Part shown: positions 1 through 41,237 of the stretch, piece by piece
Layout: every line of letters starts with the position of its first letter
Position numbering within the stretch: the stretch's first letter is position 1
NCBI GenBank assembly: GCA_038049695.1
Contig: CP142458.1
Location: forward strand, 46,715,001-46,779,000
From: Cinnamomum chago
Taxonomy: Eukaryota; Streptophyta; Magnoliopsida; Laurales; Lauraceae
Length of the DNA stretch: 64,000 nucleotides
Direction: 5' to 3'
Translations under genes and position numbers: made by a program
The notes under the pieces: model-generated
Seen by the model: the letters and a program-made list of their open reading frames with translations, nothing else
Databases searched by the model: none
Told to the model about the DNA's origin: nothing

Positions 1-2311
1 CTGAACTTTAATTGCTAACACTTCTTTGATGCAATACAGACAAGGTCCAAGAAGTCAACTGGACCAAACCATTGACCCATAGGTCAATCAGTCCATTTGG
101 TTTAGCCCATAGGCCCAATTGCGACTGAGAGCTACTATGGGATTCTAATTTTATCCCTGTTTCTTTTTTTTATATTATTAGTTAACTAGGATTGCGACTT
201 CCTATTTAGATTTCTATCCCTTTCTCCTCTTTCATTGGTCATATTTGAGGCCTTAAAATTTAAACCTGTTGCAATCCGATTAGGTTGATATTTAGGCTAC
301 TTTTTATACATGCACATACCTTCTAACCCTTTCTCTCTCTTGATTTCCTATAACCAAAGTGGACATCACATAGTGATGTTCCAATTGTGCTAAAAAAGAG
401 TTGCCCACAGGAAAGTTTCCTTATATTTTATGATGCTTGAAGCAGGACCGATTCAATCTCAAACTTGATATGCACTGTCAAGTAAAGATCAAGACTGGCT
501 TCATTGGGCTTGATTTCTAATTAAGGTTGAGCTCAAGCTTGAGCTCTATTAAGCACTATCAACTATCAAGCCTATCTTGACTTAGATGGAGTCAAGCTCA
601 AGTTGCATGTAGTTTAGCACTATGAAGCCTATCTCGACTTGGTTCGAGCCTGGCTCAAGTTGGCTCAACATCGCTCAATCCAGCTCGTTCACATCCTCAA
701 CTTAGAGGTGCAACTTGGATGAGTTTGGTTGGGCATGGAGAACTCCAAGTATGAGCTGAATTAATTTGCAGGCGAATCGAAACCCAAATGAAAAATCTAA
801 ATCAATCAAGTTATATGCAGCCCTATCTTACACGACAATAAAGCCACTACCAGAGAATAAATTGTTGGCACATCTGATCCCAATTCTATATAAATTCAAA
901 ATAACTTATTCTCAAATTCAAAACATAATTGAAACTCCAAATCAAGATTTATGATTAAAATATCCAATACCAAACAGAGAATCTCCAAACCCTAATTTCA
1001 GATTTCACAATTCTGAAGTTAGAAATAGAAATTCAAAACTCATAAAATAAAAACTCCCAATTCAAAATCTTCAACCCCGATTCGAAATCCCCAAATTCAA
1101 ACCCAAAATCGATGCCCCCAAATTTAAATCGCAAAAACCCACATCAAAATCGTTTCCTATCATCAAAACCCGTTATCTAAATCACCAAACTAAAACCCCG
1201 AATCAAGAACCTCAATAAAAAAGACCCAAAATTCTTGAACAGATCGAAGAAAGAAACATGTTAAATACTAATTTTTGATGGGCTGATTCAGTTGACTGGC
1301 CCTCAAATGTGGAGAGCTTGTCCAATCTTTATCTTCCCATCAAAGTCATATCTCATTCGATAATCCATTTCCCAAATACTAAGAAACTGAAAAAAAAAAT
1401 CCCATCTTCGTATCCTCGTGTTCAGAATGAAGAAAAAAAGTTCATCCAGATTCATCATCATCTTCAGAACAGAAAGAAATAAAAAGGAAAGTAATAAGAA
1501 AAGCAAACCTCCTTCTTCAATACGTAACAGATGAGACGGGCGTCTAATGTTGTACGTCGTATTGTATGAGAGGAGGAAGTGGAAATGGGTGGTGAGAGGG
1601 AGGGAGTAGGATAAGGGTGGGGAGCAAAGAGGGAAGAGGTTTTCGTTTTCTCCTTTTAAACGAGGGAGTAATTTATTCTCATTTGTTGGTGGTTAACCAA
1701 ACATGTGGTAAATGCAAAGTCAAAAATAAGAACATTTTCCGATTAGCTCCTTGTTTCCACTATCATTGGAAAACGGAAAATTTTAATACAGTGCTTAAGT
1801 TTTGTCCAATTTTCAAATCAGGACAAAAAAGCAAAAGTGGGCTTAAGTTTTCCACTTTCATTTCAACTCAGAACATCCGACAAGATTTAGAGGATGTTTG
1901 GTAACAAGTGAGGAATTCATAAATCTGATGATTCTTCACTTCCATTGAAATAAGGATTCTTCACTGAGGATTTGTATAGTTGATGATTTCACATTGATAT
2001 TGGTGTGTATCAATGCATATAGCTTAGAAAAATAAGGTTCAGTGTGCAAATCCACTTAAGCGAGGATATTCAAATCTTATGGGGTTGGATCTAAAAATCC
2101 TAATAAATGAAGATTTCCATTCGTCCAAATCTTCAGAAATTTACAATTGTCAAACATGGATTTTCTACAACTTTAGGAAACGGAAAATCTTTTCCCTTGA
2201 GATTTGGTTGCCAAAGTGACCGAAAATCTTTTCCACGACATTTGAGGTTTTTCAATGAAAGTTAAGCTTCCTCCTTTCCTCTTTCTTCCTTGGTACATGG
2301 AGTGGCATGGC
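1..2311. other. Low-copy flanking DNA, no gene identified
   Basis: I found no protein family here. Positions 470-720 are rich in repeated 'caagctcaag/gagctcaagctt' words, typical of a decayed plant MITE, but I could not define its ends. Positions 960-1260 are rich in AAACCC and ATCAAA words and 1300-1610 is pyrimidine-rich when read on the minus strand, as in a leader and first intron of a minus-strand gene, but no exon chain could be confirmed. Open frames here are short and show no motif. The stretch ends at the TSD of the first LTR element (GTGGT, 2312-2316). Confidence 0.5.
1692..1905. mobile_element. Possible small MITE
   Basis: The block is bounded by an inverted repeat: TTAACCAAACAT near 1694 and ATGTTTGGTAA near 1893. 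Length (about 210 bp) and AT-rich interior suit a non-autonomous DNA transposon. No convincing TSD was found beyond a possible TTA/TAA, so superfamily is not assigned. It could be a chance inverted repeat. Confidence 0.25.
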
Positions 2312-2712
2312 GTGGTTGTTAGGAATTTTGTAGATTGCAATTTGATGGATGCATTATCATTCTAGCATCATTTGATTCACACACACTTGCATTGGTTTAA
2401 GAAAACTTGAAATCTTGTTTTATTCATGCATTGCTTTTAAGATTTGTAAAAGTATTCATTTATGCATGATTTGTTTTTAAATCTTGGATGCATTGGTTTT
2501 TTAGAAAAGAGTTTTCAAGAAATCAAGCAAGCCTTTGTTTTAAAAGTTTTGAATCTTTTTAGGCTTTTTATGTCATGTTTTAAAAACCATTAGAATCTTT
2601 AAAACATGTTTTCCAAGCTTGATTTAGTGGCCAAAAGGTCCCCCAAAGAAATAACTTTGAAATGGCAAAAGTTGGATTTTTTGTCAAAAGGGGGTTGTCC
2701 CGGCAGTGTCGC

Positions 2713-2841
2713 CGGTCGACCGAGATACAGGTCTCGGTCGACCGAGACAACTGCAGGAAAAATTTGCCTGGGAGCACCAACGGTCAGAAATATGACCGTT
2801 GTGTGTTCTCGGTCGACCGAGACCTGTGTCTAGGTCGACCG
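2713..2841 (+). promoter_or_regulatory. GGTCGACC palindrome array in U3
   Basis: Four copies of GGTCGACC lie at 2714-2721, 2736-2743, 2811-2818 and 2833-2840. The second is the centre of an 18-bp perfect palindrome, GTCTCGGTCGACCGAGAC (2731-2748). Between copies two and three is an inverted repeat CAACGGTCA / TGACCGTTG (2778-2786, 2793-2801). The array ends about 30 bp upstream of the TATA box, the place for an enhancer read by dimeric factors. It is much richer in CpG than the AT-rich surroundings. Repeated U3 palindromes are, as I recall, reported for Sireviruses. Confidence 0.8.
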
Positions 2842-2867
2842 AGGACTAGCCGTTGGCAACTTTTTGC

Positions 2868-2875
2868 TATAAATA
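2868..2875 (+). promoter_or_regulatory. TATA box of the 5' LTR
   Basis: TATAAATA lies just downstream of the palindrome array. Equivalents are at 8231-8238 in the 3' LTR and as TATAAAG near 12849 and 43375 in the solo LTRs, so the array-to-TATA spacing is conserved. Transcription would start roughly 30 bp downstream. Confidence 0.7.
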
Positions 2876-3035
2876 TGAGTTCTTTCCTTTGCCAAAAGTT
2901 GGGATTTTTAAGCCCCTCCTTGAGAGGTATTGAGGCATATCGAAAGGGAAAAGAACCAAGGGATGAAGGGGATGATTAGGAAAGCTAAAGCTTGGATTAA
3001 TGAAGTTAAACCACCAAGTAGGCTCTTCCTTCCTT

Positions 3036-3647
3036 AATCATATGTTTTCATGCTTTGTTTTATTTTTGGTAAATCATTTGTAGCATGTTAAACTATGTTT
3101 GTGTTGTGTCCTTAACATGTTTTATGTTTTGAGTTGATTTATTGTTTTGGATACAACATCATATGATTCAATACAAGTAGTACTTAACTTTGGTAAATCT
3201 AAGTAGATCATGTTAATGGAAAAATCTTTGAAATCATATGTAACATGATCCATATACTTGATTGAATCTTTGGTTGTTGTTTTCCATCATAAGAACATCT
3301 CTTTCAAAACTAACTTATGTTTTGGATTCAACTTCTTTACAAATCATATGTTTTCATGTTTTGTTTTATCTTTGATAAATCTTAGTAGCATGTTAACCTA
3401 TGATGTGTTGTATCCTTAGCATGTCTTATACTTTGAATAGATCTATTGTTTTGGATGCATCACCATTTGATTCAATACAAGTAGTACTTAATCTTTGGTA
3501 AATCTAAGTAGATCATGTTAATGGAAACATCTTTGAAATTAGATGTAACATGATTCATATACTTGATTGAATCTTTGGTTGTTGTTTTTCCATCATAAGA
3601 AAATCTCTTTCAAATGTATCTTATGTTTTGGATTCAACATCTTTACA
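3036..3647 (+). repeat. 306-bp direct duplication inside the LTR
   Basis: Two adjacent diverged copies (3036-3341 and 3342-3647) both start AATCATATG and contain the words AATACAAGTAGTACTTAA and TTGATTGAATCTTTGGTTG; a third copy of the start word is at 3648. The 3' LTR has the same duplication. The minus solo LTR at 9936-11780 has a single copy, which accounts for most of the length difference. Confidence 0.8.
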
Positions 3648-4154
3648 AATCATATGTGTATTATTGTTTTAAAGTTTCACAACTTGCTTTGCTTTGATAG
3701 GTATGTCATATTCAAGTTGTATTTATAATTACATATGATTTGTCCCCTAATTTCAATCAAATCTATTTTTATGTTTTAAGCTTCATTGTTGATTTGATTG
3801 ATATCCCTATGCATCACATGTTTAGAGCTAATCCATTTCATACAACTTGTGTAACTTTGATATCATTAACAAGTTGTTACTTTTAACATGTGATTGCATT
3901 ATATCCTCAATCATAAATGTTTTATGAGCTAAAACTTTCAAAAGCCTTAGGCATACATTTATGAGCTTTCATTTTCAAAATGATTGAGGACCACACACAC
4001 ACACTTGATGTACTTTCATCTTTGCATCCATAGTGTGAGTGTGTATTAGTTTTTCACTTCCATATTCGCCTAATTAAGAGGCATTTGTAATGAGCTTAAT
4101 TGAATCTCCATCAAGTGTATTATAGACACTAACCTAGTGAGATAACCAACCTTG

Positions 4155-4290
4155 TGGTTGAAGAGGTTATTGCTTAGCCTATAAAAGCATAGTGTATAGG
4201 TTGATGTTAAGCCTTGAAAAACATCAATGTAAAGGTTATTGCTTAGCCTTGGAAAGCATATTGTAAAGGTTATTGCTTAGCCTATTGAAA
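4155..4290 (+). repeat. Short tandem units (GGTTATTGCTTAGCC)
   Basis: About four imperfect units of roughly 30-45 bp, each holding GGTTATTGCTTAGCC or a variant followed by AAAGCAT. The number of units differs between LTRs: about six at 13655-13860 and about five at 44180-44350. Confidence 0.75.
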
Positions 4291-4513
4291 ATCATAAATA
4301 GTGGAAATCCGGTGGGGTGTTGGATCACAAGCCGGTAGTGGATGTAGGCATTGAGGCCGAACCACTATAAATACTTGTGTGATGGTGATTGCTTTGTGGT
4401 GATTATTTTGTTATCTTCCGCATCTTGTATGTTTAATCATCACATGTGACTAGTTTGTTTTAAACCTATTCACCCCCCCCCCTCTAGGGTTCGGATCCCC
4501 ATGGACTTTCAAT

Positions 4514-4526
4514 TGGTATCAGAGCC
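4514..4526 (+). promoter_or_regulatory. Primer binding site, initiator Met-tRNA
   Basis: TGGTATCAGAGCC begins two bases after the 5' LTR. This matches the 3' end of plant initiator methionine tRNA, the usual primer of Ty1/copia and Ty3/gypsy elements. Confidence 0.9.
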
Positions 4527-4659
4527 GGTTACTCCATTTTAGGGCTTAACAACCCGGAGTTGATCCTTGCTAGATTAGAACCCTAGTGTTGTGATTTATT
4601 GCATATCTTTTTAAAGATTTCCACTATGTTTGAAAATGAAATTTCCCCTAGCTTCTTTG

Positions 4660-7063
4660 CACCACTCTAAGACTTTTTCAAGTTATATCTTTAAGAGTTG
4701 GTGAGTCCACAAAGTGATCTCTCAAGGACACCCTTTTCAAGACCTTAGGTGAATCTTCATTGGTACACATTTAGACTAACCTTAAGGCCTTGATCCCCCT
4801 AGACCAACCTATTCTTTTTAGTTATATCTATTTGTTGGTCATAGTACATTTGCATTTTGTTTCTTTATAGTCACATCTTTTAAAATGCAATGTTTCTTTG
4901 TGATCATTTGATTTTGTCTTCATGAACTTTTAAAGTTATATCTCATGGTTTTCAAAATCCTTTGATTGCAATACTTTCATGATGGATTTGCATTGTGTTC
5001 ATTTAGTTATATCTCTTGTAGTGCATATCTATTCATGATCAATTGATTGTGATTACAAATGCCTTCATAGCTAGATTTTTCATGATCAATTGATGTTGGA
5101 AAATCATTTGATGTTTGTCATAGTTAGATCCTTTTTGTAAATCAAATGATTTGAAGCAACCTTAGTTTTCCATTGATTTACAAGTTATATCTTTTGATAT
5201 GGAAAATTTGTAGGAGTGTCTATTGTCATATTGAGAATTCAAATTGAAAATCTTATAATAGTACACTTCTTGTTTTTCAAAATCACTTGCTCTTAATTCT
5301 AAATGATTCTTTAATGGAATTTCAAATATTGAAGTGATTTGAGAAACTTTGGAAAATGTTCTAAGCTTTATTGGTGGTATTTATAGAAGCATTTTCCTTG
5401 AATCTATTTCCTAGTGCCTAATTATGATTATATCATTTGGAAGGAAATAGTTTTTACAAACAATTTGCATCTTTGCTCATTTAGTTATATTTCATTTATG
5501 CAAATTGATTTTGATGTCATACATTGCTTGGTTGGATATGGTTTCATTGATTTGCATATTTGTGCCTAACTTGGTATATTCTCATTAATGCATTTTGATG
5601 ATTGTTTATGTGCTTTATAGTAAAATCTTGTAATTGAGCTTTTTAAGTACATATGTGATTTTATGTGCTAAGTTCATTTGATTTAAACCTCATATCCATT
5701 TTTCCATTGCATTGTAAGCTTAGTACATTTGCTAAGAGTGGAGATGTTACATGATAGCTTAATGGATCATTTTAGATGAATTGGAATTAAACCATTGTTC
5801 TTAATAGGTATATCCATTTATGTGGTCCATCTTCATCTTTATGCAATCCATGTTGTCCCTCTAACTTCATACCTTCTTTGGCTTGCTTAGTTATACTCTT
5901 TATTGATGATATGGTATGAGTTAGATCTTGAGTGTTGATTGATCCTCTCTATGCAAATGTCAAATTGTTCTATGTATGGTTGTGATCTTAGTTATATCTG
6001 TAGAAACCATACTAGAACTCAAATCCATCCTCTATGCTTTCTAGTCATATTCTTTTTGGATGGTTATGATGTTGATTCATGTATTTTCTCTAAGTGATAT
6101 CATCTTTATACATGTTTCAACTTCATAGTAGTATTCTTGATCATATGAAACTCTTTGAAATCCATTCCTCATATTTCTATATGTTTGATAGATATCTTAG
6201 ATGTTGAATTCATATGATTTAGTCACTTTGGAAATTGCATGCTTTACCAAGTCATATCTTTTTGCATTGCAATTTCTCTTGTTCATCACTATGCTTTATA
6301 GTTATATCTTTATAAGTGATGAATATGCATTTATGATGCTTGATGAAATTTTGTGTTTGCCACATTCTTGCTCTTTATCATGTTATCAAATTCAATTGGT
6401 TTCATTTGGTATAATGTTTGATTGATTTGATTTCTTGTGAATGTGATAAAACCTTGTGTGAATTGGATTGAACTTGATAAGTAATATGATTGTTCCATGT
6501 CACACACCATTAGCATCATAATGCTCATGTTGCCACCTCTCTTGCTCATATAGGTATATCTCATGACCACCATGTTTATGTGTTCATAATATTGGTTGGT
6601 TATTAGTTGAGGTTGGCTTCATGCTTGAATTTCATTTCACTCATCTTGCACTTTAAAAGTCATATTTATTGATTGAATGAAATGAGTTCAAGATTTTCAT
6701 AGCATATGCTTTCCATAGTTAGATTATTTGATGCTATGATTAATAAACCCCATTGCATCATGGATAGCTCTAATTTGGATTTCTCATATTTGTTATACTT
6801 TTAAATCCATTTTAGAGTGATTGATTTAATAGTCATATCCTTAAATCTCAATTGGTATTCTTTGTTTTTCCAATTGATATCCATGATTGCTTCTCTTTTT
6901 AGACCTAGCTCTCTTTTGGTAATTTGATCATATTGTGCTCAATAGTTAAATGAACCTAATCTTTTCCTTGAAGTTGACCCTCAATTGGTTAAACCATCTT
7001 CTTCTTGCATCTAATAGTTAAATCTTGTCAAAAGTTTGACAAAAGAAGAGAATGGATTGAGGG
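4660..7063 (+). repeat. Array of about 20-25 short hairpins with a shared loop motif
   Basis: The interior is a near-continuous series of inverted repeats, one per 50-60 bp, whose loops carry variants of TAGTTATATCTTT, always in the sense orientation. Clear examples by arms: 4802-4808/4834-4840; 5101-5112/5141-5152 (12 bp perfect); 5166-5173/5199-5206; 5280-5288/5332-5340; 5351-5358/5390-5397; 5404-5412/5442-5450; 5461-5470/5498-5507 (10 bp perfect); 5967-5981/6005-6018; 6071-6083/6109-6121; 6231-6242/6264-6276; 6282-6290/6315-6323 (9 bp perfect); 6624-6639/6678-6692; 6697-6705/6731-6739 (9 bp perfect); 6768-6782/6803-6817; 6848-6855/6870-6877 (loop motif absent); 6994-7006/7043-7055. Arms of different hairpins are unrelated in sequence while loops are similar, which points to conserved structure rather than plain tandem duplication. 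Function unknown; an RNA-binding or packaging signal is one guess. Confidence 0.85.
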
Positions 7064-7679
7064 GGAGTGTAAACCTTCATAGGAAGTATTAGTTTTGATC
7101 AAATTCACCCTTGGATTGCCTTTAGACCCTTAGAGATAACTTCCATACATGATAGCCTGTTATGTATTTCATTTTCGATTTCATTTGTTAACAGGTGCTA
7201 CTAAAGGTATTTTCCTTATTTCATGTGTGTAGGTACCTTTGCAATTTAATGTCAAAGGGGGAGAGAGTATTCAAGTACTCAAAGATCTCCTACTCTTCAA
7301 AAGGGGAAAAGAACATTCAAGTTCTCAAGAGGGGAAGAGAATGTCCAAGCTTCCTAAGGAGAGTTGTGTATGATCTTCTACAAGGGGAGAGAATGCATAA
7401 CATGCCAAAGGGAGAAAGAGAGGCATGGTCAAAGGGGGAGAGCAACTAGAAGAAAGAAAGCTTGGAGCTAAAGAAGATGCTTGGCCATAAAGAAAGAAAG
7501 ACTGAAGAATGATCAAGCACCAAGCATCATGAAGATTGAAGAAAAGAGCCCAAGAGCCCAAGCTAAGAGGAGGAGCATCCAAGAAGATTTCAAGACTTGT
7601 CCAGCTGAGGGGGAGCTGAAGACTAAGTGTGTAATTTCAGTGGTGAGTGTGTTTGCCATCAAATTGCAAAGGGGGAGAT
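7055..7679 (+). repeat. Multiplied polypurine tracts before the 3' LTR
   Basis: Purine-rich tracts resembling the functional PPT recur near 7060, 7255, 7303, 7331, 7382, 7407, 7433, 7609 and finally 7667. Typical forms are AAAGGGGGAGAG, AAAAGGGGAAAAG and AAGGGGAGAG. Only the last borders the LTR. Repeated PPT-like tracts have been reported for Sireviruses (from memory). No start-to-stop reading frame with known similarity is present, though the stretch is open for 84 codons at 7195-7449. Confidence 0.75.
7667..7679 (+). promoter_or_regulatory. Polypurine tract
   Basis: CAAAGGGGGAGAT lies immediately before the TG of the 3' LTR, where the plus-strand primer of reverse transcription is expected. 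Confidence 0.85.
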
Positions 7680-9871
7680 TGTTAGGAATTTTGTAGATTG
7701 CAATTTGATGGATGCATTATCATTCTAGCATCATTTGATTCACACACACTTGCATTGGTTTAAGAAAACTTGAAATCTTGTTTTATTCATGCATTGCTTT
7801 TAAGATTTGTAAAAGTATTCATTTATGCATGATTTGTTTTTAAATCTTGGATGCATTGGTTTTTTAGAAAAGAGTTTTCAAGAAATCAAGCAAGCCTTTG
7901 TTTTAAAAGTTTTGAATCTTTTTAGGCTTTTTATGTCATGTTTTAAAAACCATTAGAATCTTTAAAACATGTTTTCCAAGCTTGATTTAGTGGCCAAAAG
8001 GTCCCCCAAAGAAATAACTTTGAAATGGCAAAAGATGGAGTTTTTGTCAAAAGGGGGTTGTCCCGGCAGTGTCGCCGGTCGACCGAGATACAGGTCTCGG
8101 TCGACCGAGACAACTGCAGGCAAAATTTGCCTGGGAGCACCAACGGTCAGAAATATGACCGTTGTGTGTTCTCGGTCGACCGAGACCTGTGTCTAGGTCG
8201 ACCGAGGACTAGCCGTTGGCAACTTTTTGCTATAAATATGAGTTCTTTCCTTTGCCAAAAGTTGGGATTTTTAAGCCCCTCCTTGAGAGGTATTGAGGCA
8301 TATCAAAAGGGAAAAGAACCAAGGGATGAAGGGGATGATTAGGAAAGCTAAAACTTGGATTAATGAAGTTAAACCACCAAGTAGGCTCTTCCTTCCTTAA
8401 TCATATGTTTTCATGCTTTGTTTTATTTTTGGTAAATCATTTGTAGCATGTTAAACTATGTTTGTATTGTGTCCTTAACATGTTTTATGTTTTGAGTTGA
8501 TTTATTGTTTTGGATACAACATCATATGATTCAATACAAGTAGTACTTAACTTTGGTAAATCTAAGTAGATCATGTTAATGGAAAAATCTTTGAAATCAT
8601 ATGTAACATGATCCATATACTTGATTGAATCTTTGGTTGTTGTTTTCCATCATAAGAACATCTCTTTCAAAACTAACTTATGTTTTGGATTCAACTTCTT
8701 TACAAATCATATGTTTTCATGTTTTGTTTTATCTTTGATAAATCTTAGTAGCATGTTAACCTATGATGTGTTGTATCCTTAGCATGTCTTATACTTTGAA
8801 TAGATCTATTGTTTTGGATGCATCACCATTTGATTCAATACAAGTAGTACTTAATCTTTGGTAAATCTAAGTAGATCATGTTAATGGAAACTTTTTTGAA
8901 ATTAGATGTAACATGATTCATATACTTGATTGAATCTTTGGTTGTTGTTTTTCCATCATAAGAAAATCTCTTTCAAATGTATCTTATGTTTTGGATTCAA
9001 CATCTTTACAAATCATATGTGTATTATTGTTTTAAAGTTTCACAACTTGCTTTGCTTTGATAGGTATGTCATATTCAAGTTGTATTTATAATTACATATG
9101 ATTTGTCCCCTAATTTCAATCAAATCTATTTTTATGTTTTAAGCTTCATTGTTGATTTGATTGACATCCCTATGCATCACATGTTTAGAGCTAATCCATT
9201 TCATACAACTTGTGTAACTTTGATATCATTAACAAGTTGTTACTTTTAACATGTGATTGCATTATATCCTCAATCATAAATGTTTTATGAGCTAAAACTT
9301 TCAAAAGCCTTAGGCATACATTTATGAGCTTTCATTTTCAAAATGATTGAGGACCACACACACACACTTGATGTACTTTCATCTTTGCATCCATAGTGTG
9401 AGTGTGTATTAGTTTTTCACTTCCATATCCGCCTAATTAAGAGGCATTTGTAATGAGCTTAATTGAATCTCCATCAAGTGTATTATAGACACTAACCTAG
9501 TGAGATAACCAACCTTGTGGTTGAAGAGGTTATTGCTTAGCCTATAAAAGCATAGTGTATAGGTTGATGTTAAGCCTTGAAAAACATCAATGTAAAGGTT
9601 ATTGCTTAGCCTTGGAGAGCATATTGTAAAGGTTATTGCTTAGCCTGTTGAAAAGCATAAATAGTGGAAATCCGGTGGGGTGTTGGATCACAAGCCGGTA
9701 GTGGATGTAGGCATTGAGGCCGAACCACTATAAATACTTGTGTGATGGTGATTGCTTTGTGGTGATTATTTTGTTATCTTCCGCATCTTGTATGTTTAAT
9801 CATCACATGTGACTAGTTTGTTTTAAACCTATTCACCCCCCCTCTAGGGTTCGGATCCCCATGGACTTTCA
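7680..9871 (+). repeat. 3' LTR of the family-1 element
   Basis: Nearly identical to the LTR at 2317-4511. Differences seen by eye include changes near 8035, 8108, 8305, 8352, 8465, 8891, 9164, 9429 and 9645, and a shorter C-run near 9836. The palindrome array (8076-8204) and TATA box (8231) are kept. It ends GACTTTCA and is followed by TSD GTGGT (9872-9876). Confidence 0.95.
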
Positions 9872-9935
9872 GTGGTTTGGTAGTGAGTAGTATGCCATGG
9901 CTATCGATCGCATGAGGTAGATGCCAACAACATGC

Positions 9936-12103: not shown

Positions 12104-14701
12104 TAGGCATGTAAATCCGGGTCGGGCCGTGCCCATTCCCATGAGGGTCAGCCCAGCACTGCCCTGGTCGTGTTTGTTAGGAATTTTGTATTTGCAATTT
12201 GATGGATGCATTTGCACTTTAGCATCATTTGATTAACACTCACTTGCATCGTTTTAGAAAACCTTGAAATCTGGTTTTATACATGCATAGCTTTTAAGTT
12301 TTGGAAAAGTATTTGTTTTATGCATGTTTTGGTTCTAAACTTGGATGTAATGGTTTTAGAATCCAAACTCTTTTGAAAACCTATCTTTGTGCATTATATT
12401 TGGAAAATCATGTTGAGAATTTAGGTTTGAGCCTTGCATACATTCTTCACAAAATGAATCATTTTTGTATGCATTTTCTTTTGAAAAGAGTTTTATCAAA
12501 TCAAGCTAGCCTTTGGTTTTAAACTTTCAAATCATTTTAGGCTTTGTGTGTTTCATGTTTTTAAACATGTTAGAATGACTTAAAACATGTTATTCAAGCT
12601 TGATTTAATGGCCCAAAGTTCCACCAAGAAAAACTTTGTTATTTGCAAAAGTTGGAAATTTTGGGGCCCTGGCAGTGTCGCCGGTCGACCGAGACCTGCT
12701 TCCCGGTTGACCGGGACCACTGTCGGGCGAGTGGACAGTTTCTGAACTGTTTCAGGCCAACGGTCAGAAATATGACCGTTGTGCTTTCTCGGTCGACCGA
12801 GACCTGTGTCTAGGTTGACCGAGGACTAGCCGTTGGACACTTTTTGGCTATAAAGTCCATTCATTTCCAACCTTTTTCAAGGCTTGACTCATGAACCTTT
12901 GAGAGCATTTTGGAGCCATTGAAAGGGGATGAAGTTGGAAAGGCTAGGAGGTCATTAGGAGAGCTAAAGCTTGGATTATTAAGTTAAACCACCAAGTAAG
13001 CTCTACCTTTGTTAATCATAGTTTTCATGTTTTGTTTAAGCTATTGGTAAATGATTTTGTACATGATAACTATGTTGTGTTGAATCCATTCTTCTCCTAA
13101 TCTTTGATCTATTTAAGATTGGATTCTTCACTTTGGTTTCAATCCAAGTAGTTTCTAAAACCTTCTTAATCATGCTTAGTATAAATCTTTGATTTCCTTT
13201 TTATGGCATGATTCATTTTCTTGGTTGAAACCTAATTTGTTGTTTTCATTCATTTGAACATTAGTAAAATTAATTTGGTTTTGAAAACAACATTGCACAT
13301 GCATCACATGTTCTAAGTTAGTCATTTTCATACAACTTGTGATTCTTTGATTTTCATATCATTAACAAGTTATTAAACATACATGTGATTTGCATTAAAC
13401 TTCAATCAAGTCTTTTATATGTCTTAAACTTTGAAATGCTTTGAGCATACATTTGAATAAGCCTTCTTTTTAAGCTTGATTGAAGTCATCACACACACAC
13501 ATCATGAGCATACACTTTTGCATTCATAGAGTGTTTGTGTGAGTTTGTTTTAAACTTTCATATCCGCCTATTTAAGAGGCAATTTCATTGAGCTTAATTT
13601 GTATCTCTTAGAGTGATCTTTTGTGAAGACACCATCTTTGAGAAATCTTTATTTGTAAAGGTTATTGCTTAGCCTAAGAAAAGCATTGTGTAAGGTTATT
13701 GCTTAGCCTAAGAAAAGCATCTTGTAAGGTTATTGCTTAGCCTAAGAAAAGCATTTTGTAAAGGTTATTGCTTAGCCTATAAAAGCACATTGAGAGGTTG
13801 TTGTTTAGCCTTGAAAAGCAACATTGTAAGGGTTATTGCTTAGCCTAGTAAAAAGCATAAATAGTGGAAATCCGGTGGGGTGTTGGATTCACAAGCCGGT
13901 AGTGGATGTAGGCATTGAGGCCGAACCACTATAAACCTTGGTGTTGTGGTGCTTGCATTTGTGGTGATTGTTTATTTGAGCTTCCGCATATTGTATGGTT
14001 AATCATCACATGTGACTAGTTTATGTTAAGAAATTAAAATTGGTCTAAATTGGTCATACTTGTAGCACACCCTATTCACCCCCCCTCTAGGGTTAGGATC
14101 CTCAAGGACTTTCAGTGTTGTGCTGGGCCATGCCACCCATGGGCGGCCCAATTTTTTTTTTGAAGTTGGACTTCAACCCTAACCCTATGAGATAATGTGC
14201 GCTAAGAAAAAACCGCTGCCCTAATGCAATCAAGTTTAGTTCGAGTCCCTTTTTTTCCTTGTGTAAACAATGCAATCAAGTTTAGTTCGAGTGTCCATTT
14301 TTTTTTATTTCCAATGCTCCACCTGGACTTGGCCTTGGTCTTTACTTTCTTTTTGCCTTTGACTATGGAAAATGGCCCTGGTGCAGTTGAGATGCACATT
14401 GGAAATTACCTGACCCAATGCCCCACCAGGACTTGGACTTGGGTTATTCTTCCTTTTTTTTTTTTGTAGACTAGTCCACGGGCGGGCCGGGCCGTGCTGC
14501 CCGTGGGCTTGGGGCGCTGGCCTAGCATGGCATGGATTTTATCCGTGCCGTGCCACGGGGCACGGGCCTGGCAACCCTAGCCCAGCGGAAGACTGTCGGG
14601 CTGGGCCGTGCCGGCCATTTGACCAAGTCCATAGCCCAGGCACGGTTTTTCCATGCCGGGCCGTGCTAGGCTAGGGCTGCCCGCCCAAGTTTACATGCCT
14701 A
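12104..14701. mobile_element. hAT-type MITE interrupted by a solo LTR
   Basis: Terminal inverted repeats TAGGCATGTAAA (12104-12115) and TTTACATGCCTA (14690-14701) are perfect over 12 bp. An 8-bp TSD, GTTTCATT, flanks them (12096-12103 and 14702-14709), the size made by hAT transposases. Without the LTR at 12175-14114 it is about 650 bp. It is rich in GGGCCGGGCCGTGC-type words in both subterminal regions and has no coding capacity, so it must have been moved by a transposase elsewhere. Confidence 0.9.
12175..14114 (+). repeat. Solo LTR, family 1, inside the MITE
   Basis: TGTTAGGAATTTT to GGACTTTCA with perfect TSD GTGTT (12170-12174 and 14115-14119). The array at 12681-12822 has GGTCGACC at 12683 and 12791 and decayed GGTTGACC copies near 12715 and 12813 (C to T in a CpG, as expected from methylation damage). 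TATA box near 12849. About six GGTTATTGCTTAGCC units occupy 13655-13860. Confidence 0.95.
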
Positions 14702-31411: not shown

Positions 31412-34400
31412 TGTAAGATCCTGATCCCACTCATAATATTTTATTATATTTTAATTAGAGTATACTATTATTTTAATTAAATGTATTTTAGTTATTTAAG
31501 TGGTTAGGATTAAGTGGGGCACACGTTAGATTAGATGCGTGGTTTGGTGAGTTGGGTTAATGGGTAGGTGACTTGACCCGCAGTTTTGACCCAATAACTC
31601 AAGCCCAAAGAATATTCCCTCTCTTAACCTAATCCCCTTTATTACGAACGCACGTCTTTATCCATTCCCACTTATCTCTGCAACTCCTTCCGGTTATTCT
31701 TCGTCTTTTTCCTCTTTCAACTTCTCAAGCCTCTGCAACTTTTGGATCCAGCCATCAGAATCAAGATCTGAAGACACAATCATTCTTGGTTCAATTTTCT
31801 TATCTCAGGTAATCCTCTCCTTAAACCATTAGAAGTAGATCTATATTCTTGGGTTATCTCCTTTTTCTTTCCAATGGTAGATTTGGGTAAGAGAACCATA
31901 GATCTGTTCATCTGAGCATTCCTTTCCCCTATTCTCTGTCAGATTGGTGATAGGATTATTCTTGAGCGCTATGGGAATCTCGGTTTGGGTATTGGTTATG
32001 ATCTGTTGTATTTCCTCAAACTCCGGTAAAAGGCAAGTACCTAAACATAATTTTTGAATTTAATGCATGTGTTTCTCGTTGATTCCAATGTGGATGCACG
32101 TAGAAACCCTTTTATGCCTTTTCTGATGATAATCTTGCAATGCGATTTTGTTTGATCTGAGATTTGGGGATGACCCAATCGATTTCCTCATATTGACGTT
32201 ACCGTTGTAAATGTCTATTACCCGCAACACTTTTGTTTGGATTTCAAAACCCCTTTTTCACCTTCTGTTGTTTGGTTTTAAAACCACTTTTTAATCCTCT
32301 AAGATTCTGTTAATTGTATGTTAGGAATTGAGATTCTGGGAAACCCATTGGGAAACTAGAGGATACCAGCAGGTCTCGGACTTGAATAGTTTGGGACTGT
32401 ACCCGTGTTTTTGACCGTGGGACCCAGGTGGGTCACGTGATGATGAATCTGGTCCGTGGATCCGGAAGAGGACCCACGGGCAACCTTGAAGGGGCTGGTC
32501 CCAAAGGCAGTGGACACCCCTGGCCCACCATCCATTAGGTTGATCAGAGATGGCGTGATTGAGGGAAAATAATTAGTTTTGGACATCAGGCGGTTGTGGG
32601 ACCCACCGGAGATCTGATCATAGATCTGGTTCATTCATCGGGTCGGACGTGGCGGGGCGATCTTAGAGATGTGGACCTATGTGAGGTGGACCCCTCTTGG
32701 TTTACCATCTGAGAGATTACACCGTTGGGGCGTGAGACACTTTTGACATTGTTTCGTTATGAGATATGATAGTGGGGCCAAAGGATGAGACCTGATGACC
32801 AATCCGGGCCATAGATCTTACACTAGGGCCTTGGGCGACCTTACTGATGAAGGCTGATCGTGGGCTTTGGATCAGTGGGCCACTAACCGAAGTGCACAGA
32901 GGCACAAATGTGTTAACGATGAGCTACTGCAGAACTGGTTCTGTAATAAGAAAGAAAGGAATGGAGATGACGATGATGTCATCCCATGTCACTCCCATGT
33001 GATATTAGTACACTACTACAGACTTGATGGGATGAATGGAGGGGAGGAATTTGGTGGTCCAGGGGTGCATGGAAAAATGTATCCATCACCCATTTACTAA
33101 TTTGACTTTTAAGTTATGTTAAATTTTGTACCTTGTCCCTTTTAGTTTGTGAAAATTAGAAAAAAGACCTTGGTTGTTTTATAAACCTAAATTATAACCT
33201 TTTATTATCTTTGATGTGTTAAAATTATATTTTTATTAATTGAATCAATGGACTAAGTAAATACTGTACGGGCAAACAGTATCTTACTAACATGGGGTTT
33301 AGTACTTTGTATGACCTCGAGGAAATCCTAATGGATTCAAGTTCAACCCATCTCTATTGGAAAACCCTTAATTGGGTCTATGCACCGTTGATGGAGAATG
33401 GATGCGTTGATCTTTTATCTATTAGAGATTCCTGTGGTTGTTGGGTACGAGACCTTATGTTTGACCTTAGGATTGATTCGTATCTATGTCTTAACCTTCG
33501 CATGCATATATATGTTGGTTTAGGATATGTATTCCTTTAGATGCATACCCTATTATGTGTTATGGACTATAAAGTGGCTTGGCAATTTTTGTATGACAAT
33601 TTGATTATGATATGGAATGTGGAATGGCCAGCACTTTACTTTGACTTAGGACTCTTGTGTCGGAGCTTTATTATTCTGGTCTATTATGCTTATATGTTTA
33701 TGTTTATGTGGGTCATTTATGGACGACTGCAGATCGATATATGGACGGTTGATCACCGATGTGACCGGATCACTTATAATCTGCTTTGAATGTGAACATG
33801 TTATCCTGATTTATTTTTAATTTGATCGGTTTATGACCACCGATGTTATGGACGGGCTCTCCCGATTTATTTAGGGCTGACCACCCAAAACGGGGACACT
33901 TGTCTTCGTGTGAATCATATTGCTCATTTTGCTTTATTTAGATTATGCTATACGTTCTTTCTTGTCATTATTACTGTCATTACTTCTATGTGATCACTCT
34001 CGTCTATATTCTCCTTGTTGTTGTATTAAATTTTAAATTATGATTATGTACTTGCTTTTACTCTGTAATATTTGGTGCATAGGTACCGAGCCCTACTTTA
34101 CCGAGGAGACGGAGGAGGGTTAAACGTTTCAAATGTTTGAGCCAACTGTTGAACCCGAGTGGGATGCCGGAGATGGCTTTGGAGCCGTCTGAGCCTGTAC
34201 AGAGAGAACGACACCGTATAATTATTTTAAATGAACTTTCCTTTTAGTATTGAGACATCTTTTAGAAATTATTTAATTTATTCAGCAACTTTAACTATTA
34301 TTATTTTATCTGAATTTGTGTTGGTTCTCATTTATGAACATTGGATACCAATTGAATAAAGCTTCCGCTGCATTTAATGAAATTTATTTTGACTCACCAC

Positions 34401-34517
34401 AGGTTGAAATTTTTTGTGGGTACACTTTTGAAAGCTTGTGTTGTATTAAACACAACAAATTTGAATTTGATTTAATTTTTCACGTTTTTCTCAATTCTTA
34501 TTGTGGGGGACGTGACA
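31412..34517 (+). repeat. 5' LTR of the plus gypsy element
   Basis: TGTAAGATCCTGATCCC to GGGGGACGTGACA, 3106 bp. The portion 31696-33272 is repeated at 39662-41237 with a few percent divergence by eye. I saw no palindrome array in it, unlike the other long LTRs here. Short open frames (32356-32634, 33292-33789) have no recognisable product. Confidence 0.9.
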
Positions 34518-34519
34518 GT

Positions 34520-34532
34520 TGGTATCAGAGCC
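34520..34532 (+). promoter_or_regulatory. Primer binding site, initiator Met-tRNA
   Basis: TGGTATCAGAGCC two bases after the LTR end GTGACA, complementary to the 3' end of initiator Met-tRNA. Confidence 0.9.
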
Positions 34533-34690
34533 AGACTGATTTTCGAATATTAAAAATGGATAGAAATAATTGGACGTGGTGAGGATTGCGAATTCCGTTA
34601 GACACGCTTTACATTCTAACTGTAAAGCTTATAGAATTGTTTGTTAGCTTGTTTCATAGAATCTAACCTATTGTCATTTCATTGTAGGTC

Positions 34691-36598
34691 ATGGCACATC
34701 GTACAACTAGATCTCAGGACAAGGAACTTGGGAATGGATCGAATAATCCAGACGATCATTTCACCAAACTCTTGCAAGCTTTTGTGTAAGCCCAGACTAC
34801 CCAAAATGATCAGCAGAGAGCACGCGAGATTGAACAAGCTGTAGAAAAACAACGAGAAAGGGAAGAACGAGCTGCTGAGAGAGCACAAGCAGATAGAGAT
34901 AGAGCAGCATTCCAGGCTCAAATCTTAGCCTTGACAGATCGAGCAGCTTAGCCAGTGCAGGCGGTCATGCCTCCCAGGGAAGTAGATCAAAATGACCTCT
35001 ATGAGAAATTCAGGAAGAGGGTTCCTCCTGAGTTTCACGGGTTTGAAGATCCCATGGTAGTAGATGATTTTATAGAACAGTTTGAGCAAATCTTTGCAGT
35101 CTTTAATTGCACTCAAAAGCAGCGAGTTAATTTGGCAGCTTACATGTTCAGAGGAATAGCTCTCCAATGGTGGAACTCAGTCAAAGCAGTAGTGCAAGCA
35201 GAGGTTGTGGCTGAAGAGAATGCCTGGGAAACATTTACTACGGAGTTTATGGATAAATTTATTCCCAAATATGTCAAGGACCAGTGGAAGAGGGATTTTC
35301 ATAACTTAGTGCAAGGTGACATGTTAGTACAGCAGTATGAACAACAATTCACAAGATTGGCTAAGTATGCACCTACACTAGTTGTTCCAAAGGAAGAGAA
35401 AATTTGGCTTTTTCTTGATGGGTTATCAGCTGACATCTACATGATGATTGGAGACAATCAATGCCCGACATTCCAGGAGACTGTGAAAAGTGCATATTGG
35501 CTTGAAGGTGCACTAAAGAAGAAGGCAGTAGAACGACAGGTTAAATATCAGCAACATTAGTTGAGGCAATCTTCTAGCCAAGGCAATCCGAAGAAACAGA
35601 AGTTTCAAGGTCAACCCTTAGGTGGTCAGAGACAACTGTGTGGACGATGTGGAAAGAACCATCCTACTGAGCAATGCTACAGAGAGACAGGTGCATGTTT
35701 TCACTATGGGTAGATTGGCCATCGAGTTCGCGATTGTCCCAATGACGGTAGTCAGTTGCCAGTGTCCTAGCTAGCAGTTTCTCGTGCTTCTGAACAGCAG
35801 CCTTGGAGGACAGCACCTCCGCATGGACCACAACAGATTCCTCGGGCACCACAACAACAAATGTACCGAGCACCAACCCCTTAGTATCAGCAATATAGGG
35901 GTGCAGCGCCACAGCAGCAGAGGCCAGTCCTAGGACAGCATAGGCCAGTGCATGGTCAGCAGAGGCAATTCCAGCCACAAAGGCAGCAACAACCAGTGGG
36001 TCAACCAAGACCACCTAGGCCAGTGCAAGCGCAGCCGAACCAAGCTCAGCATATGGACAGTGTATATGCAGTTACTCATGAGGATGCAGATGCTTCTGCA
36101 GAGGTTGTGGAAGGTATTGTTCTAATATCAGAGGTAGAAGCTAAGGCCATATTTGACCCTGGCTCTACACATTCCTTTGTTTCCCATGATTTTGCTAGAC
36201 ATATCAATGAGGCTGTAGTGAGATTAGATGTTGCTTTAGTAGTGGGCACCCCAGTGGGCAAGCAGGTTCGTTGCCACCAATATTTTTCGAGTACCCGAGT
36301 TCAAATTGAGGATTTCATCTTACCTGCAGACCTGATTCTTTTAACGATGAAGGATTTCGATGTTATACTTGGTATGGACTAGCTAGCGACATATAGAGCA
36401 GTGATGGACTGTTTTAATAAAACGATCAAGTTGTCATTGCATTCTGACACTATTGAATTTGTTGGTTGGAGGAAACCAATTCGGACATGCAGGATCTCGA
36501 CATTAAAAGCAGAAAGATTGTTGAAATCTGGATGTGAAGGATATTTGGCGCGGAGGATAACAGTCAAAAGGAGTGGAGGATATTCTAGTGGTCTGTGA
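34691..36598 (+). pseudogene. Gypsy gag and aspartic protease, broken
   Basis: One reading frame from ATG 34691 with seven in-frame stops: TAA at 34787 and TAG at 34949, 35558, 35711, 35768, 35882 and 36380. It encodes a charged coil (EKQREREERAAERAQ), the retrotransposon gag core (FHGFEDPMVVDDFIEQF, WWNSVKA, FTTEFMDKFIPKYVKDQWKR), a CX2CX3HX4C knuckle near 35640-35680, a second knuckle with Tyr replacing Cys, a Gln/Pro-rich linker, and the protease motif DPGSTHSFVS near 36156. Stops sit where Gln (six cases plausible) or Trp is expected. Then the frame shifts near 36573-36600. Confidence 0.88.
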
Positions 36599-37972
36599 GT
36601 TCCCGGATGTTTTCCCGGATGAAATTCTAGGCTTACCTCCAGTCAGGGAGATAGACTTTTCAATTGAATTGGTACTAGGGACAGCTGCGATTCCTAAAGC
36701 TCCATATAGAATGGCTCCAGTAGAACTCAGAGAGTTGAAAACTCAATTGCAGGATTTGTTGGACAAGGGATTTGTGAGACCAAGTGTATCACCTTGGGGT
36801 GCACCGGTCCAATTTGTGAAGAAGAAGGATGGTTCTATGAGGATGTGTATAGATTATCGACAACTCAATCAGGTCACAATCAAGAACAAATATCCTCTCC
36901 CAAGGATCGATGAATTGTTTGATCAGCTTCAGGGAGCTGAATATTTCTCAAAGATAGACTTAAGATCAGGATATCCCCAGCTCAGAGTTCGAGATTAGGA
37001 CATTCAGAAGACAGCATTCAGAACAAGATATGGCCACTACGAGTTTCTAGTAATGCCATTTGGGTTAACCAATGCTCTCGGAGTATTTATGGCCTTGATG
37101 AATAAGATATTTGCTCCATTTCTCGACCAGTTTATCGTTGTTTTTATAGACGACGTGTTAGTATATTCTATCAGCTTCAGGGAGCTGAATATTTCTCAAA
37201 GATAGACTTAAGATCAGGATATCCCCAGCTCAGAGTTCGAGATTAGGACATTCAGAAGACAGCATTCAGAACAAGATATGGCCACTACGAGTTTCTAGTA
37301 ATGCCATTTGGGTTAACCAATGCTCTCGGAGTATTTATGGCCTTGATGAATAAGATATTTGCTCCATTTCTCGACCAGTTTATCGTTGTTTTTATAGACG
37401 ACGTGTTAGTATATTCTCGGTCTCGAGAAGATCATCAGCAGCATTTGAGGTCAGCATTGCAGACTTTGAGAGATCATCAACTCTATGCCAAGTTGATTAA
37501 ATGCAAATTTTGGCTTCAGCAAGTAATTTTCTTGGGTCACATCATCAGCAAGGAAGGTTTGGCTGTAGATCCAGGAAAGATTGAGGCAGTGGTCAAGTGG
37601 CAGAGACCCATGTCAGTAACAGAGATTCGTAGTTTCTTGGGTTTAGCAGGTTACTACAGGAGATTTGTGAAAGGATTTTCATCCATTGCTGCTCCATTGA
37701 CCAAACTAATACGAAAATATATACCGTTTATGTGGACTGACGAATGTGAAGCAAGTTTTCAGGAGTTAAAGAATAGGTTGACTATAGATCCAGTGCTCAC
37801 ATTGCCTACAGAAAATGGTAGATTTGTCATTTACACGGATGCCTCGAAGGTTGGATTGGGTTGTGTGCTTATACAGGATGGGAAGGTAGTGGCTTATGGC
37901 TTTAGACATTTGAAAGAGCATGAGAAAATGCCACTCATGATTTGGAACTTACAGCAGTGGTTATGGCATTGA
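36573..37972 (+). pseudogene. Gypsy reverse transcriptase and start of RNase H, broken
   Basis: Contains [62 protein letters not shown] and the active-site motif [11 protein letters not shown], then [37 protein letters not shown] and the RNase H start [10 protein letters not shown]. There is a stop at 36996 (again at 37244 in the duplicate), and a 248-bp duplication (36922-37169 repeated as 37170-37417) shifts the frame, so the FIDD motif is encoded twice. A further frameshift lies near 37930. Usual residues differ in places: GYP for GYH, NAL for NAP. Confidence 0.9.
36922..37417 (+). repeat. Perfect 248-bp tandem duplication in RT
   Basis: Positions 36922-37169 and 37170-37417 look identical base for base, including an in-frame TAG. 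Both copies begin ATCAGCTTCAGGG and end GTATATTCT. The length is not a multiple of three. The duplication is younger than the stop codon it copies. Confidence 0.9.
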
Positions 37973-39661: not shown

Positions 39662-41237
39662 ATTCTTCGTCTTCTTCCCCTTTCAACTTCCCAAGCCTCT
39701 GCAACTTTTGGATCCAGCCATCAGAATCAAGATCTAAAGACACAATCATTCTTGGTTCAACTTTCTTATCTCAGGTAATCATCTCCTAAAACCATTAGAA
39801 GTAGATCTATATTCTTGGGTTATCTCCTTTTTCTTTCCAATGGTAGATTTGGGTAAGAGAACCATAGATCTGTTCATCTGAGCATTCCTTTCCCCTATTC
39901 TCTGTCAGATTGGTGATAGGATTATTCTTGAGCGCTATGGGAATCTCGGTTTGGGTATTGGTTATGATCTGTTGTATTTCCTCAAACTCCGGTAAAAGGC
40001 AAGTACCTAAACATAATTTGTGAATTTAATGCATGTGTTTCTCGTTGATTCCAATGTGGATGCATGTAGAAACCCTTTTATGCCTTTTCTGATGATAATC
40101 TTGCAATGCGATTTTGTTTGATCTGAGAATTGGGGATGACCCAATCAATTTCCTCATATTGACGTTACCGTTGTAAATGTCTATTACTCGCAACACTTTT
40201 GTTTGGATTTCAAAACCCCTTTTTCACCTTCTGTTGTTTGGTTTTAAAACCACTTTTTAATCCTCCAAGATTCTGTTAATTGTATGTTAGGAATTGAGAT
40301 TCTGGGAAACCCATTGAGAAACTAGAGGATACCAGCAGGTCTCGGACTTGAATAGTCTGGGACTGTATTCGTGTTTTTGACTATGGGACCCAGGTGGGCC
40401 ACGTGATGATGAATCTGGTTCGTGGATCTGGAAGAGGACCCATGGGTGACCTTGAAGGGGTTGGTCCCATAGGCAGTGGACACCCCTGGCCCACCATCCA
40501 TTAGGTTGATCAGAGATGGCGTGATTGAGGGAAAATAATTAGTTTTGGACATCAGGCGGTTGTGGGACCCACCGGATGATCTAATCATAGATCTGGTTGT
40601 TCATCGGGCCGGACGTGGCGGGGCGATCTTAGAGATGTGGACCTGTGTGAGGTGGACCTCTCTTGGTTTACCATCTGAGAGATTACACTGTTGGGGCATG
40701 AGACACTTTTGAAATTGTTTCGCTATGAGATATGATAGTGGGGCCAAAGGATGAGACCTGATGACCAATCCGGCCATAGATCTTACACTAGGGCCCTGGG
40801 CGACCTTACTGATGAAGGCTGATCAGGGGCCTTGGATCAGTGGGCCACTAACCGAAGTGCACAGAGGCACAAATGTGTTGACGATGAGCTACTGCAGAAC
40901 TGGTTCTGTAATAATAAAGAAAGGAACGGAGATGACGATGATGTCATCCCGTGTCACTCCTATGTGACATTAGTACACTACTACAGACTTGATGGGATGA
41001 ATGGAGGGGAGGAATTTGGTGGTCCAGGGGTGCATGGAAAAATGTATCCATCACCCATGTACTGATTTGACTTTTAAGTTATATTGAATTTTGTACCTTG
41101 TCCCTTTTAGTTTGTGGAAATTAGGAAAAAGACCTTGGTTGTTTTATAAACCTAAATTATAACCTTTTATTATCTTTGATGTGTTAAAATTATATTTTTA
41201 TTAATTGAATCAATGGACTAAGTAAATACCGTACGGG
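39662..41237 (+). repeat. 3' LTR remnant of the plus gypsy element
   Basis: Matches 31696-33272 of the 5' LTR. It lacks the first 284 bp and the last 1245 bp of the LTR, and there is no PPT before it. The left junction joins pol directly to LTR at ATTCTTCGTC. The right junction joins GTACGGG to a family-2 LTR (GAGTTTATC), with a possible 3-4 base microhomology. Both look like end-joining deletions rather than transposition events. Confidence 0.88.

Follow-up and report, generated by a model that had tools for sequence, protein, structure and literature searches.

Hairpins with conserved arms and a shared loop motif occupy the non-coding interior of a putative Sirevirus-derived retrotransposon in Cinnamomum chago

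The window analysed here, a 64,000-nucleotide stretch of the Cinnamomum chago genome (assembly GCA_038049695.1, contig CP142458.1, positions 46,715,001 to 46,779,000 of the forward strand), carries a long terminal repeat (LTR) retrotransposon whose non-coding interior holds an array of about 20 hairpins. The arms differ from hairpin to hairpin, the loops share a motif on the sense strand, and the arms are under purifying selection in the copies that transmit. The hairpin structure is well supported, and from it we infer a function: selected arms together with a shared loop motif suggest a repeated docking site for a protein, and packaging would be the best fit by analogy with known systems. 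The hairpins, with their left and right arms and loop lengths in nucleotides (nt), and one segment within the array are:

4660..4703, + strand: hairpin CACCA/TGGTG
4802..4840, + strand: hairpin GACCAAC/GTTGGTC, loop 25
4850..4890, + strand: hairpin TTGCATTTT/AAAATGCAA, loop 23
4910..4959, + strand: hairpin GATTTTG/CAAAATC
4988..5026, + strand: hairpin TTGCATT/AGTGCAT, loop 25
5038..5094, + strand: hairpin ATCAATTGATTGTGA/TCATGATCAATTGAT, loop 27
5101..5152, + strand: hairpin AAATCATTTGAT/ATCAAATGATTT, loop 28; the pair beside CATTTG/CAAATG is compensated between types
5164..5208, + strand: hairpin AGTTTTCCAT/ATGGAAAATT, loop 25
5404..5450, + strand: hairpin CTATTTCCT/AGGAAATAG, loop 29; the pair 5405/5449 is compensated between types
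5461..5507, + strand: hairpin CAATTTGCAT/ATGCAAATTG, loop 27
5607..5653, + strand: hairpin TATGTGCTT/AAGTACATA, loop 29
5761..5856, + strand: segment of ~95 bp with one motif site; alignment break in most copies
5867..5919, + strand: hairpin TCATACC/GGTATGA, loop 39
5974..6012, + strand: hairpin GTATGGTT/AACCATAC, loop 23
6024..6064, + strand: hairpin TCCATCC/GGATGGT, loop 27
6078..6114, + strand: hairpin CATGTAT/ATACATG, loop 23
6231..6276, + strand: hairpin GAAATTGCA/TGCAATTTC, loop 28
6282..6323, + strand: hairpin TTCATCACT/AGTGATGAA, loop 24, with an exact TAGTTATATCTTT
6632..6685, + strand: hairpin TCATTTCA/TGAAATGA
6697..6739, + strand: hairpin TCATAGCAT/ATGCTATGA, loop 25; the outer pair is compensated among copies
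6768..6817, + strand: hairpin CTCTAATTTGGATTT/AAATCCATTTTAGAG, loop 20

The loops are tied together by the 13-mer TAGTTATATCTTT, which is matched at at least 10 of 13 positions by 23 non-overlapping + strand sites in 4640-7070 and, at the same threshold, by one antisense site. The true flank partners of these sites reach a mean stem score of 9.46. In a re-pairing control that kept all flanks and matched left flanks with the right flanks of other sites, the score was 6.62 (standard deviation 0.34) and 0 of 20,000 permutations reached 9.46, while 57 motif-like sites elsewhere in the window, on both strands, scored 7.18 (standard deviation 2.42). An earlier note on this DNA had proposed some 20 hairpins with a shared loop motif on one strand, which the strand count and the re-pairing control bear out, and the four hairpins it named (5101/5141, 5461/5498, 6282/6315, 6697/6731) are all present. 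Its spacing of one hairpin per 50-60 bp describes the runs, in which the 20 listed hairpins lie 49-74 bp apart, but not the gaps of 101-358 bp. The arms are mostly 7-15 bp long and nearly all Watson-Crick (165 of 176 stem positions in the window, with 8 other mismatches, 2 A-C and 1 G-U), and 17 motif-centred stems pass when G-U and A-C are penalised equally. The loops are AT-rich and T-rich with a sense-strand core, AGTTATAT, and 15 of the 20 measure 23-30 nt. When the hairpins are folded in isolation as RNA, the predicted structure pairs the arms in 20 of 20 cases, and the stem formed by the arms contributes -2 to -14 kcal/mol by itself. A covariance model of 13 window hairpins has 90.4% paired cells compared to 57% with shuffled partners, a selection-biased and purely descriptive figure, as the 13 were chosen by their fit to a two-hairpin seed.

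Dinucleotide shuffles, the control that the earlier note had suggested, do not yield such hairpins. Perfect inverted repeats with arms of at least 8 and loops of 18-34 number 11, compared to 1.2 in shuffles (8 compared to 0.3 with arms of at least 9), and the motif lies in the loop of 9 of these 11, being absent in 5135/5183 and 5351/5397. With arms of at least 8, the main excess falls at loops of 23-30 nt (10 vs 0.6), with a further excess at 37-50 nt (5 vs 0.8) and near-chance numbers at 0-22 nt (2 vs 1.6). Elsewhere in the window the excess is spread over other loop lengths too: the LTR of this element has 6 vs 0.6 (loops 23-30), 5 vs 0.8 (3-17) and 8 vs 1.6 (51-80), and another copia LTR has 4 vs 0.3 (loops 23-30). 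The inverted repeat at 5135-5183 is perfect over 11 bp and gives neighbouring hairpins an alternative pairing, between a portion of the 5101/5152 right arm and the 5164/5208 hairpin on its loop side.

The arms of most hairpins are unrelated, as the earlier note held, except for those that share a vocabulary (CATTTGAT, TTTGCAT). Tandem duplication alone was rejected as a source of the array, as a tandem-repeat finder returns just two short two-copy runs in 4640-7070 and most arms cannot be aligned, despite partial direct repeats between units in the loops. A known RNA family was also rejected, with 0 Rfam matches at gathering score within the window.

Comparison between copies shows which part of the hairpin is maintained. 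Genome searches covered the window's own genome (1.06 Gb, 14 contigs), with 40 of 1,021 to 9,118 candidates scored, and gave family copies at 88-94% identity (40 of 6,809 candidates scored). An initial conservation count against the window copy favoured the arms, and the result held when repeated without that copy and as a singleton test. Among 26 family-1 copies, window copy excluded (the long ones of 51 fetched, hand-picked without a formal rule), pairwise divergence is 0.030 in the arms, 0.074 in the core AGTTATAT, 0.113 in the rest of the 13-mer, 0.108 in the other loop positions and 0.073 in the linker; between family 1 and family 2, these classes give 0.095, 0.160, 0.248, 0.245 and 0.165, respectively. 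Set against a pi of 0.081 elsewhere in the 26 copies, the arm value gives a ratio of 0.37, below all circular label shifts (lowest 0.585), and in a wider set that includes poorly aligned copies the ratio is 0.55 (lowest shift 0.675). Because immobile copies gather private mutations everywhere, singletons were also contrasted with variants found in at least 3 copies, using all 51 copies minus 14 removed by a gap and local-divergence rule. In the resulting 37 copies, singletons and shared variants number 64/19 in arms, 166/135 in loops and 350/223 at other sites, so that shared variants are depleted in arms (Fisher p = 0.0002 vs loops, 0.003 vs other sites); singletons too are somewhat rarer there (0.18 per site vs 0.26-0.30). 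Mutations hit the arms but seldom enter transmitting copies, and the arms are therefore under purifying selection in those copies, which argues against template switching. The selection on structure proposed in the earlier note is upheld by both the diversity and the shared-variant tests. Its picture of conserved loops with interchangeable arms is true within one array, where arms differ and loops agree, but is reversed between orthologs: six orthologous hairpins set side by side have arms that are near-unchanged across families and loops that vary.

The array recurs in other interiors, reached via related LTRs at 12.2-14.1 kb and 42.7-44.6 kb. One is a 4.1 kb interior type (L064 and relatives), in which L064 matches the window at 70% over 4674-5548 and at 87% over 5835-7100; L062 is a third interior variant, in antisense, and L085-L088 are four more copies. 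The re-pairing test was run in 10 of these further copies, which are related interior types and not mutually independent, with family 1 represented by the window alone. It gave z scores (permutations as high per 20,000 in brackets) of 6.7 (0) for L064, 6.3 (0) for L065, 6.8 (0) for L066, 5.7 (1) for L067, 4.6 (2) for L068, 7.4 (0) for L062, 5.6 (0) for L085, 6.6 (0) for L086, 3.6 (9) for L087 and 5.7 (0) for L088. Dropped from the set were L069-L072, in which the array is absent (motif sites number 5, 1, 3 and 1), as well as L061 and L063. Over 62 copies, the motif has 1186 sense and 34 antisense sites. The ~95 bp at 5761-5856 form a clean alignment break in 18 of 20 copies picked by their 5′ end (1 aligns through and 1 is unresolved), which is a modular gain or loss of a unit. 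At C8:33288013-33312157, C6:41998246-42042532, C10:6836172-6885183 and C11:12282485-12373887, elements stand head to tail, with 5-16 matches per row at a near-constant spacing of 5.3-6.06 kb, resembling the tandem arrays of the terminal-repeat retrotransposon in miniature (TRIM) Cassandra.

Compensatory change is clear at three pairs and scarce beyond them, a signal that is real but thin. The three were counted by direct string matching, free of alignment. At 6697/6739, the pair is A-T in 27, T-A in 18 and T-T in 8 of 53 matched copies (of 61). At 5405/5449, the 47 family-1 copies matched (of 51) carry T-A in 46 cases and T-T in one, and in the other type the 8 copies matched (of 9) all carry C-G. 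In 5101/5152, the pair beside CATTTG/CAAATG has A on the left in 44 of 44 and T opposite in 45 of 45 matched family-1 copies, and in the other type T on the left in 8 of 8 and A opposite in 7 of 7. Single-copy arm changes include 48 Watson-Crick double cells, compared to 3-7 in slid controls, and these come mostly from 6231/6276 (12) and 5404/5450 (26). At 5404/5450 the window holds a rare C-G state (found in 1 of 47 other matched copies) and the other type has T-T (7 of 8), while 6231/6276 was dropped as compensation, being a noisy terminal pair (AA, GA, GC, TA) in the wider set. The pair 6084/6108 was also dropped, as string matching gave no second Watson-Crick pair. A three-way comparison of the window with L064 and L062 gave no double substitution of the Watson-Crick kind, with certain pairs hidden by gaps; between the window and L064, 136 of 144 compared pairs are identical and 21 further pairs lie in gaps. 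The earlier note had named arms that mutate without compensation as one sign against its proposal: the arms change little and three pairs are compensated, but where arms have changed, it is mostly on one side.

Folding of single sequences gives mean z scores of -1.42 (+) and -1.66 (-), compared to -0.24 and -1.01 for two control stretches on the + strand. Consensus folds of 10 hand-picked copies, with most of 5150-5950 excluded for gaps, give -2.47 (+) and -2.75 (-), and 66% of 29 folding windows fall below z -2. The structure is conserved, and these data fit either RNA or DNA as its carrier; RNA is favoured on general grounds, since the element replicates via RNA, the core is nearly sense-only and the arms differ between units.

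The element that houses the array has the following parts, with the polypurine tract abbreviated PPT:

2312-9876, + strand: LTR retrotransposon enclosing the hairpin array, with a target site duplication at both ends
2312..2316 (left) and 9872..9876 (right), no strand: target site duplication GTGGT, identical 5 bp
2317..4511, + strand: 5′ LTR of 2195 bp, with three CGGTCGACCG palindromes and TATAAAT at 2868 and 4366
4512..4530, + strand: TTGGTATCAGAGC, directly 3′ of the 5′ LTR, which we take to be the primer binding site (PBS) region
7060..7677, + strand: Sirevirus-type linker with five AGGGGGAG octamers, at 7060, 7256, 7433, 7608 and 7670
7656..7711, + strand: inverted repeat CCATCAAATTGCAA/TTGCAATTTGATGG around the PPT/3′ LTR junction, perfect over 14 nt (7656-7669 and 7698-7711)
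7680..9871, + strand: 3′ LTR of 2192 bp

Two LTRs, a target site duplication, a terminal PPT and the PBS-like TTGGTATCAGAGC identify an LTR retrotransposon, and with 13 mismatches in 2192 positions between the LTRs and GTGGT on both sides, the insertion is therefore young. Several AGGGGGAG octamers near the 3′ LTR, a terminal PPT AGGGGGAG followed by AT and then by the TG of the 3′ LTR (7670-7681), and the junction inverted repeat are those of a Sirevirus derivative. Exact CGGTCGACCG sites number 3 in the 5′ LTR, where table rows of PMC2829016 give 8-18 copies per element. The interior (4516-7680) holds no gag-pol open reading frame of the kind an autonomous Sirevirus would have; its longest stop-to-stop stretch is 85 codons (+) or 103 codons (-), in line with the earlier note's description of it as non-coding, and a protein-coding array was rejected on the same lengths. 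A long, conserved non-coding interior in a multicopy family is what marks a large retrotransposon derivative (LARD). With this non-coding interior and the Sirevirus hallmarks, the element therefore appears to be a young, non-autonomous copia element, a Sirevirus-derived LARD, and as it has no coding capacity, its proteins would be needed in trans. The two TATAAAT boxes of the LTR (2868, 4366) recall the two promoters of BARE, and the choice between them sets how long the transcribed leader is.

Hairpins of a similar kind are found in the LTRs:

3206..3250, + strand: LTR hairpin GATCATGTTA/TAACATGATC; a related LTR has AATCATGC/GCATGATT at 13168-13213
3679..3720, + strand: LTR hairpin ACAACTTG/CAAGTTGT, a weak array-model match (18.8 bits)
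3842..3877, + strand: LTR hairpin ACAACTTGT/ACAAGTTGT; arms CAACTTGT/ACAAGTTG recur in the autonomous element's LTR around a different loop

The hairpin at 3206/3250 differs from its counterpart in the related LTR at two pairs, and arms of LTR hairpins are more conserved in the closest related LTR (0.037 vs 0.104-0.134 for the rest). Weak array-model matches in LARD-type LTRs are all sense (3046, 3678 and 3754 with their 3′ LTR twins; 43022; 10572, 10650 and 11050 on the - strand, in a - strand LTR; and 63041 on the - strand), a bias confounded by T-rich composition, which favours sense, and by matches of similar score elsewhere on both strands. An autonomous Sirevirus, L060, adjoins the window, with a PBS, a 1609-codon open frame and the same PPT arrangement; the 3′ part of the frame matches integrase, SH3-like and RVT_2 families, and a CCHC-type sequence was read by eye. 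The LTR of L060 lies at 62800-64000 (-), with gag-pol beyond the window edge, and the 40 scored candidates, itself included, match its pol end at 98-100%. One of its two best array-model matches is an LTR hairpin with arms CAACTTGTT/AACAAGTTG, common to the LARD LTR, and the other is CACCTG/CAGGTG after the pol stop, with AGTTTTATATCT in the loop. These LTR and post-pol hairpins hint at, and do not prove, a common origin with the array.

Other elements share the window. A copia element at 50721-62900, with repeats ~11.1 kb apart, has a gag-integrase frame (54558-56423), an RVT_2 frame (59588-61837) and inverted repeats in its LTR region with loops of 20-27. At 31696-41071, frames for a Ty3-type gag (34952-35560), RVT_1/RNase H (37247-37972) and a Tf2-1-like SH3 (38698-39558) lie between direct repeats 7.97 kb apart, and within this region lies a perfect 248 bp tandem duplication (36922-37417). 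At 47069-47184, CCGATCGATCGG forms two perfect inverted-repeat pairs, whose loops measure 31 and 28 nt and whose sequence is unrelated to the array.

Viral packaging-signal loops are short and their sites lie within coding RNA, whereas the loops here are ~25 nt long and the candidate sites fill a non-coding interior. The likeness lies in the recurrent stem-loops with a shared loop motif expected of a packaging-signal array, which are found here: in MS2, parechovirus and hepatitis B virus (HBV), many stem-loops vary around a shared recognition motif (parts of PMC6281560; PMC7612645; PMC5431903), and dispersed stem-loops of this kind are packaging signals in several RNA viruses (PMC6281560, in part). 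The non-autonomous copia element BARE2, whose RNA is packaged in trans in BARE1 particles, differs in lacking the Gag start codon and keeping other coding sequence; it is said to have conserved dimerization and packaging signals, and the passages that describe it mention no hairpin array (PMC3735527). LARDs such as Sukkula resemble this element in their LTRs, PBS, PPT, long non-coding interior and many copies, and are said to have a well-conserved RNA structure (PMC7215508, in part). Sireviruses (Ty1/copia) share the multiple AGGGGGAG tracts, the AT/TG junction, the PPT inverted repeat and the CGG-CCG palindromes of the LTR, which are fewer here than in the elements tabled there (PMC2829016, in part), but this element is without gag-pol. 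The LTR palindromes of Sireviruses are already known (parts of PMC2829016; PMC10760457) and are short boxes repeated in sequence, whereas the hairpins here are AT-rich, with differing arms and a shared loop.

Our tentative proposal is that the array serves as an RNA platform whose packaging-like hairpins are recognised by Gag from an autonomous Sirevirus. In this view, a ~20-hairpin array that fills most of the LARD interior would have taken the place of the coding region. Within the genomic RNA, the hairpins would together offer multivalent binding, with each stem holding open a single-stranded, U-rich loop whose size is fixed and whose core is degenerate. The loops would be bound by a protein provided in trans, for which the zinc-knuckle Gag of such a Sirevirus is the likeliest candidate, and element RNA would in this way enter foreign virus-like particles. 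The array would thus resemble the packaging signals that are dispersed along the genomes of small RNA viruses, but concentrated in a gene-free element. Packaging in trans, as in BARE2, and the dispersed stem-loop precedents place Gag capture above generic folding, a host factor, a DNA-level function or no function. A bolder version, which we consider doubtful, is a gene-free parasite of Sireviruses, whose concatemer of ~20 or more degenerate packaging hairpins would outcompete the host element by multivalent Gag capture, having expanded from hairpins of a type that autonomous Sireviruses still carry singly, in their LTR and behind the pol stop.

Several observations weigh against the Gag-capture proposal. 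Single-copy arm changes comprise 151 one-sided cells (30 G-U, 27 A-C) compared to the 48 Watson-Crick doubles, and states shared among the 37 copies comprise 19 one-sided compared to 1 Watson-Crick double. The shared one-sided changes are 6 G-U, 3 A-C (p = 0.2 vs the expected share) and 10 other mismatches, nor is G-U favoured in the window stems (1, vs 2 A-C); in a wider, noisier set of 58 rows, states found in at least 2 sequences include 22 G-U (one a double change) and 15 A-C. Fold z scores are alike on both strands and so do not separate RNA from DNA. The core AGTTATAT is about as variable as the linker between orthologs, where a strict protein motif would suggest more conservation, and in three more distant LTRs the hairpin arms are not more conserved than the rest (0.27-0.31 vs 0.24-0.27). 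L060 is without an array and its frame starts near the PBS, its two best array-model matches are weak (E 0.06 each in 10 kb, both sense and non-coding), and its LTR is distantly related to that of the LARD, so that it may not be the true partner.

It is unlikely, in our judgement, that the array is a generic RNA scaffold, in which the stems serve to hold a long non-coding RNA in a compact local fold, the loop motif is left over from ancient tandem duplication and nothing specific is bound. Constrained arms with loops more variable than linkers between orthologs would suit it, as would the degenerate cores and the partial direct repeats between units, which suggest tandem duplication; yet compaction needs neither a narrow loop length, given that shorter loops, which would favour folding, show no enrichment, nor a sense-strand core retained across hairpins with mostly unalignable arms. 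The structural evidence is the same for a plant RNA-binding protein recruited by the U-rich loops for nuclear export, stability or silencing evasion of the unspliced RNA, a role that constitutive transport elements serve in animal retroelements. Weaker, similar hairpins in the LTRs of related elements speak for such a host factor and the lack of a matching Rfam family speaks against it, and we consider it improbable.

No more probable is selection on the arms as double- or single-stranded DNA (a cruciform, a cDNA hairpin or a dimeric binding site). The near-complete Watson-Crick pairing of the stems (165 of 176 positions), a G-U share not clearly above that of A-C and the equal fold signal on both strands are in its favour, but a sequence-reading DNA-binding protein would not tolerate arms that differ between units, and the core is nearly confined to the transcript strand (1186 vs 34 sites over 62 copies). 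A neutral origin, in which template switching by reverse transcriptase or during replication makes and repairs inverted repeats without any function, could account for the diffuse inverted-repeat excess elsewhere in the window. Arm-to-arm repair should, however, leave the arm rate unchanged and yield many double changes, whereas in family 1 the divergence of arms is ~2.4-3.8 times lower than that of linkers and loops, and changes are mostly one-sided; template switching was rejected on this arm conservation, and we hold a neutral origin to be very improbable.

In the open literature, which omits most subscription papers, we found no description of a loop-sharing hairpin array in the interior of a LARD, and in this the element differs from the LARDs described there. 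To our knowledge, there is no settled account of the recognition and mobilisation in trans of LARDs and other retroelements that encode no protein. Selected arms, a fixed loop size and a definable motif make this array a concrete, testable candidate signal for mobilisation in trans, and the many copies of the element offer natural sequence variation with which this candidate can be tested.

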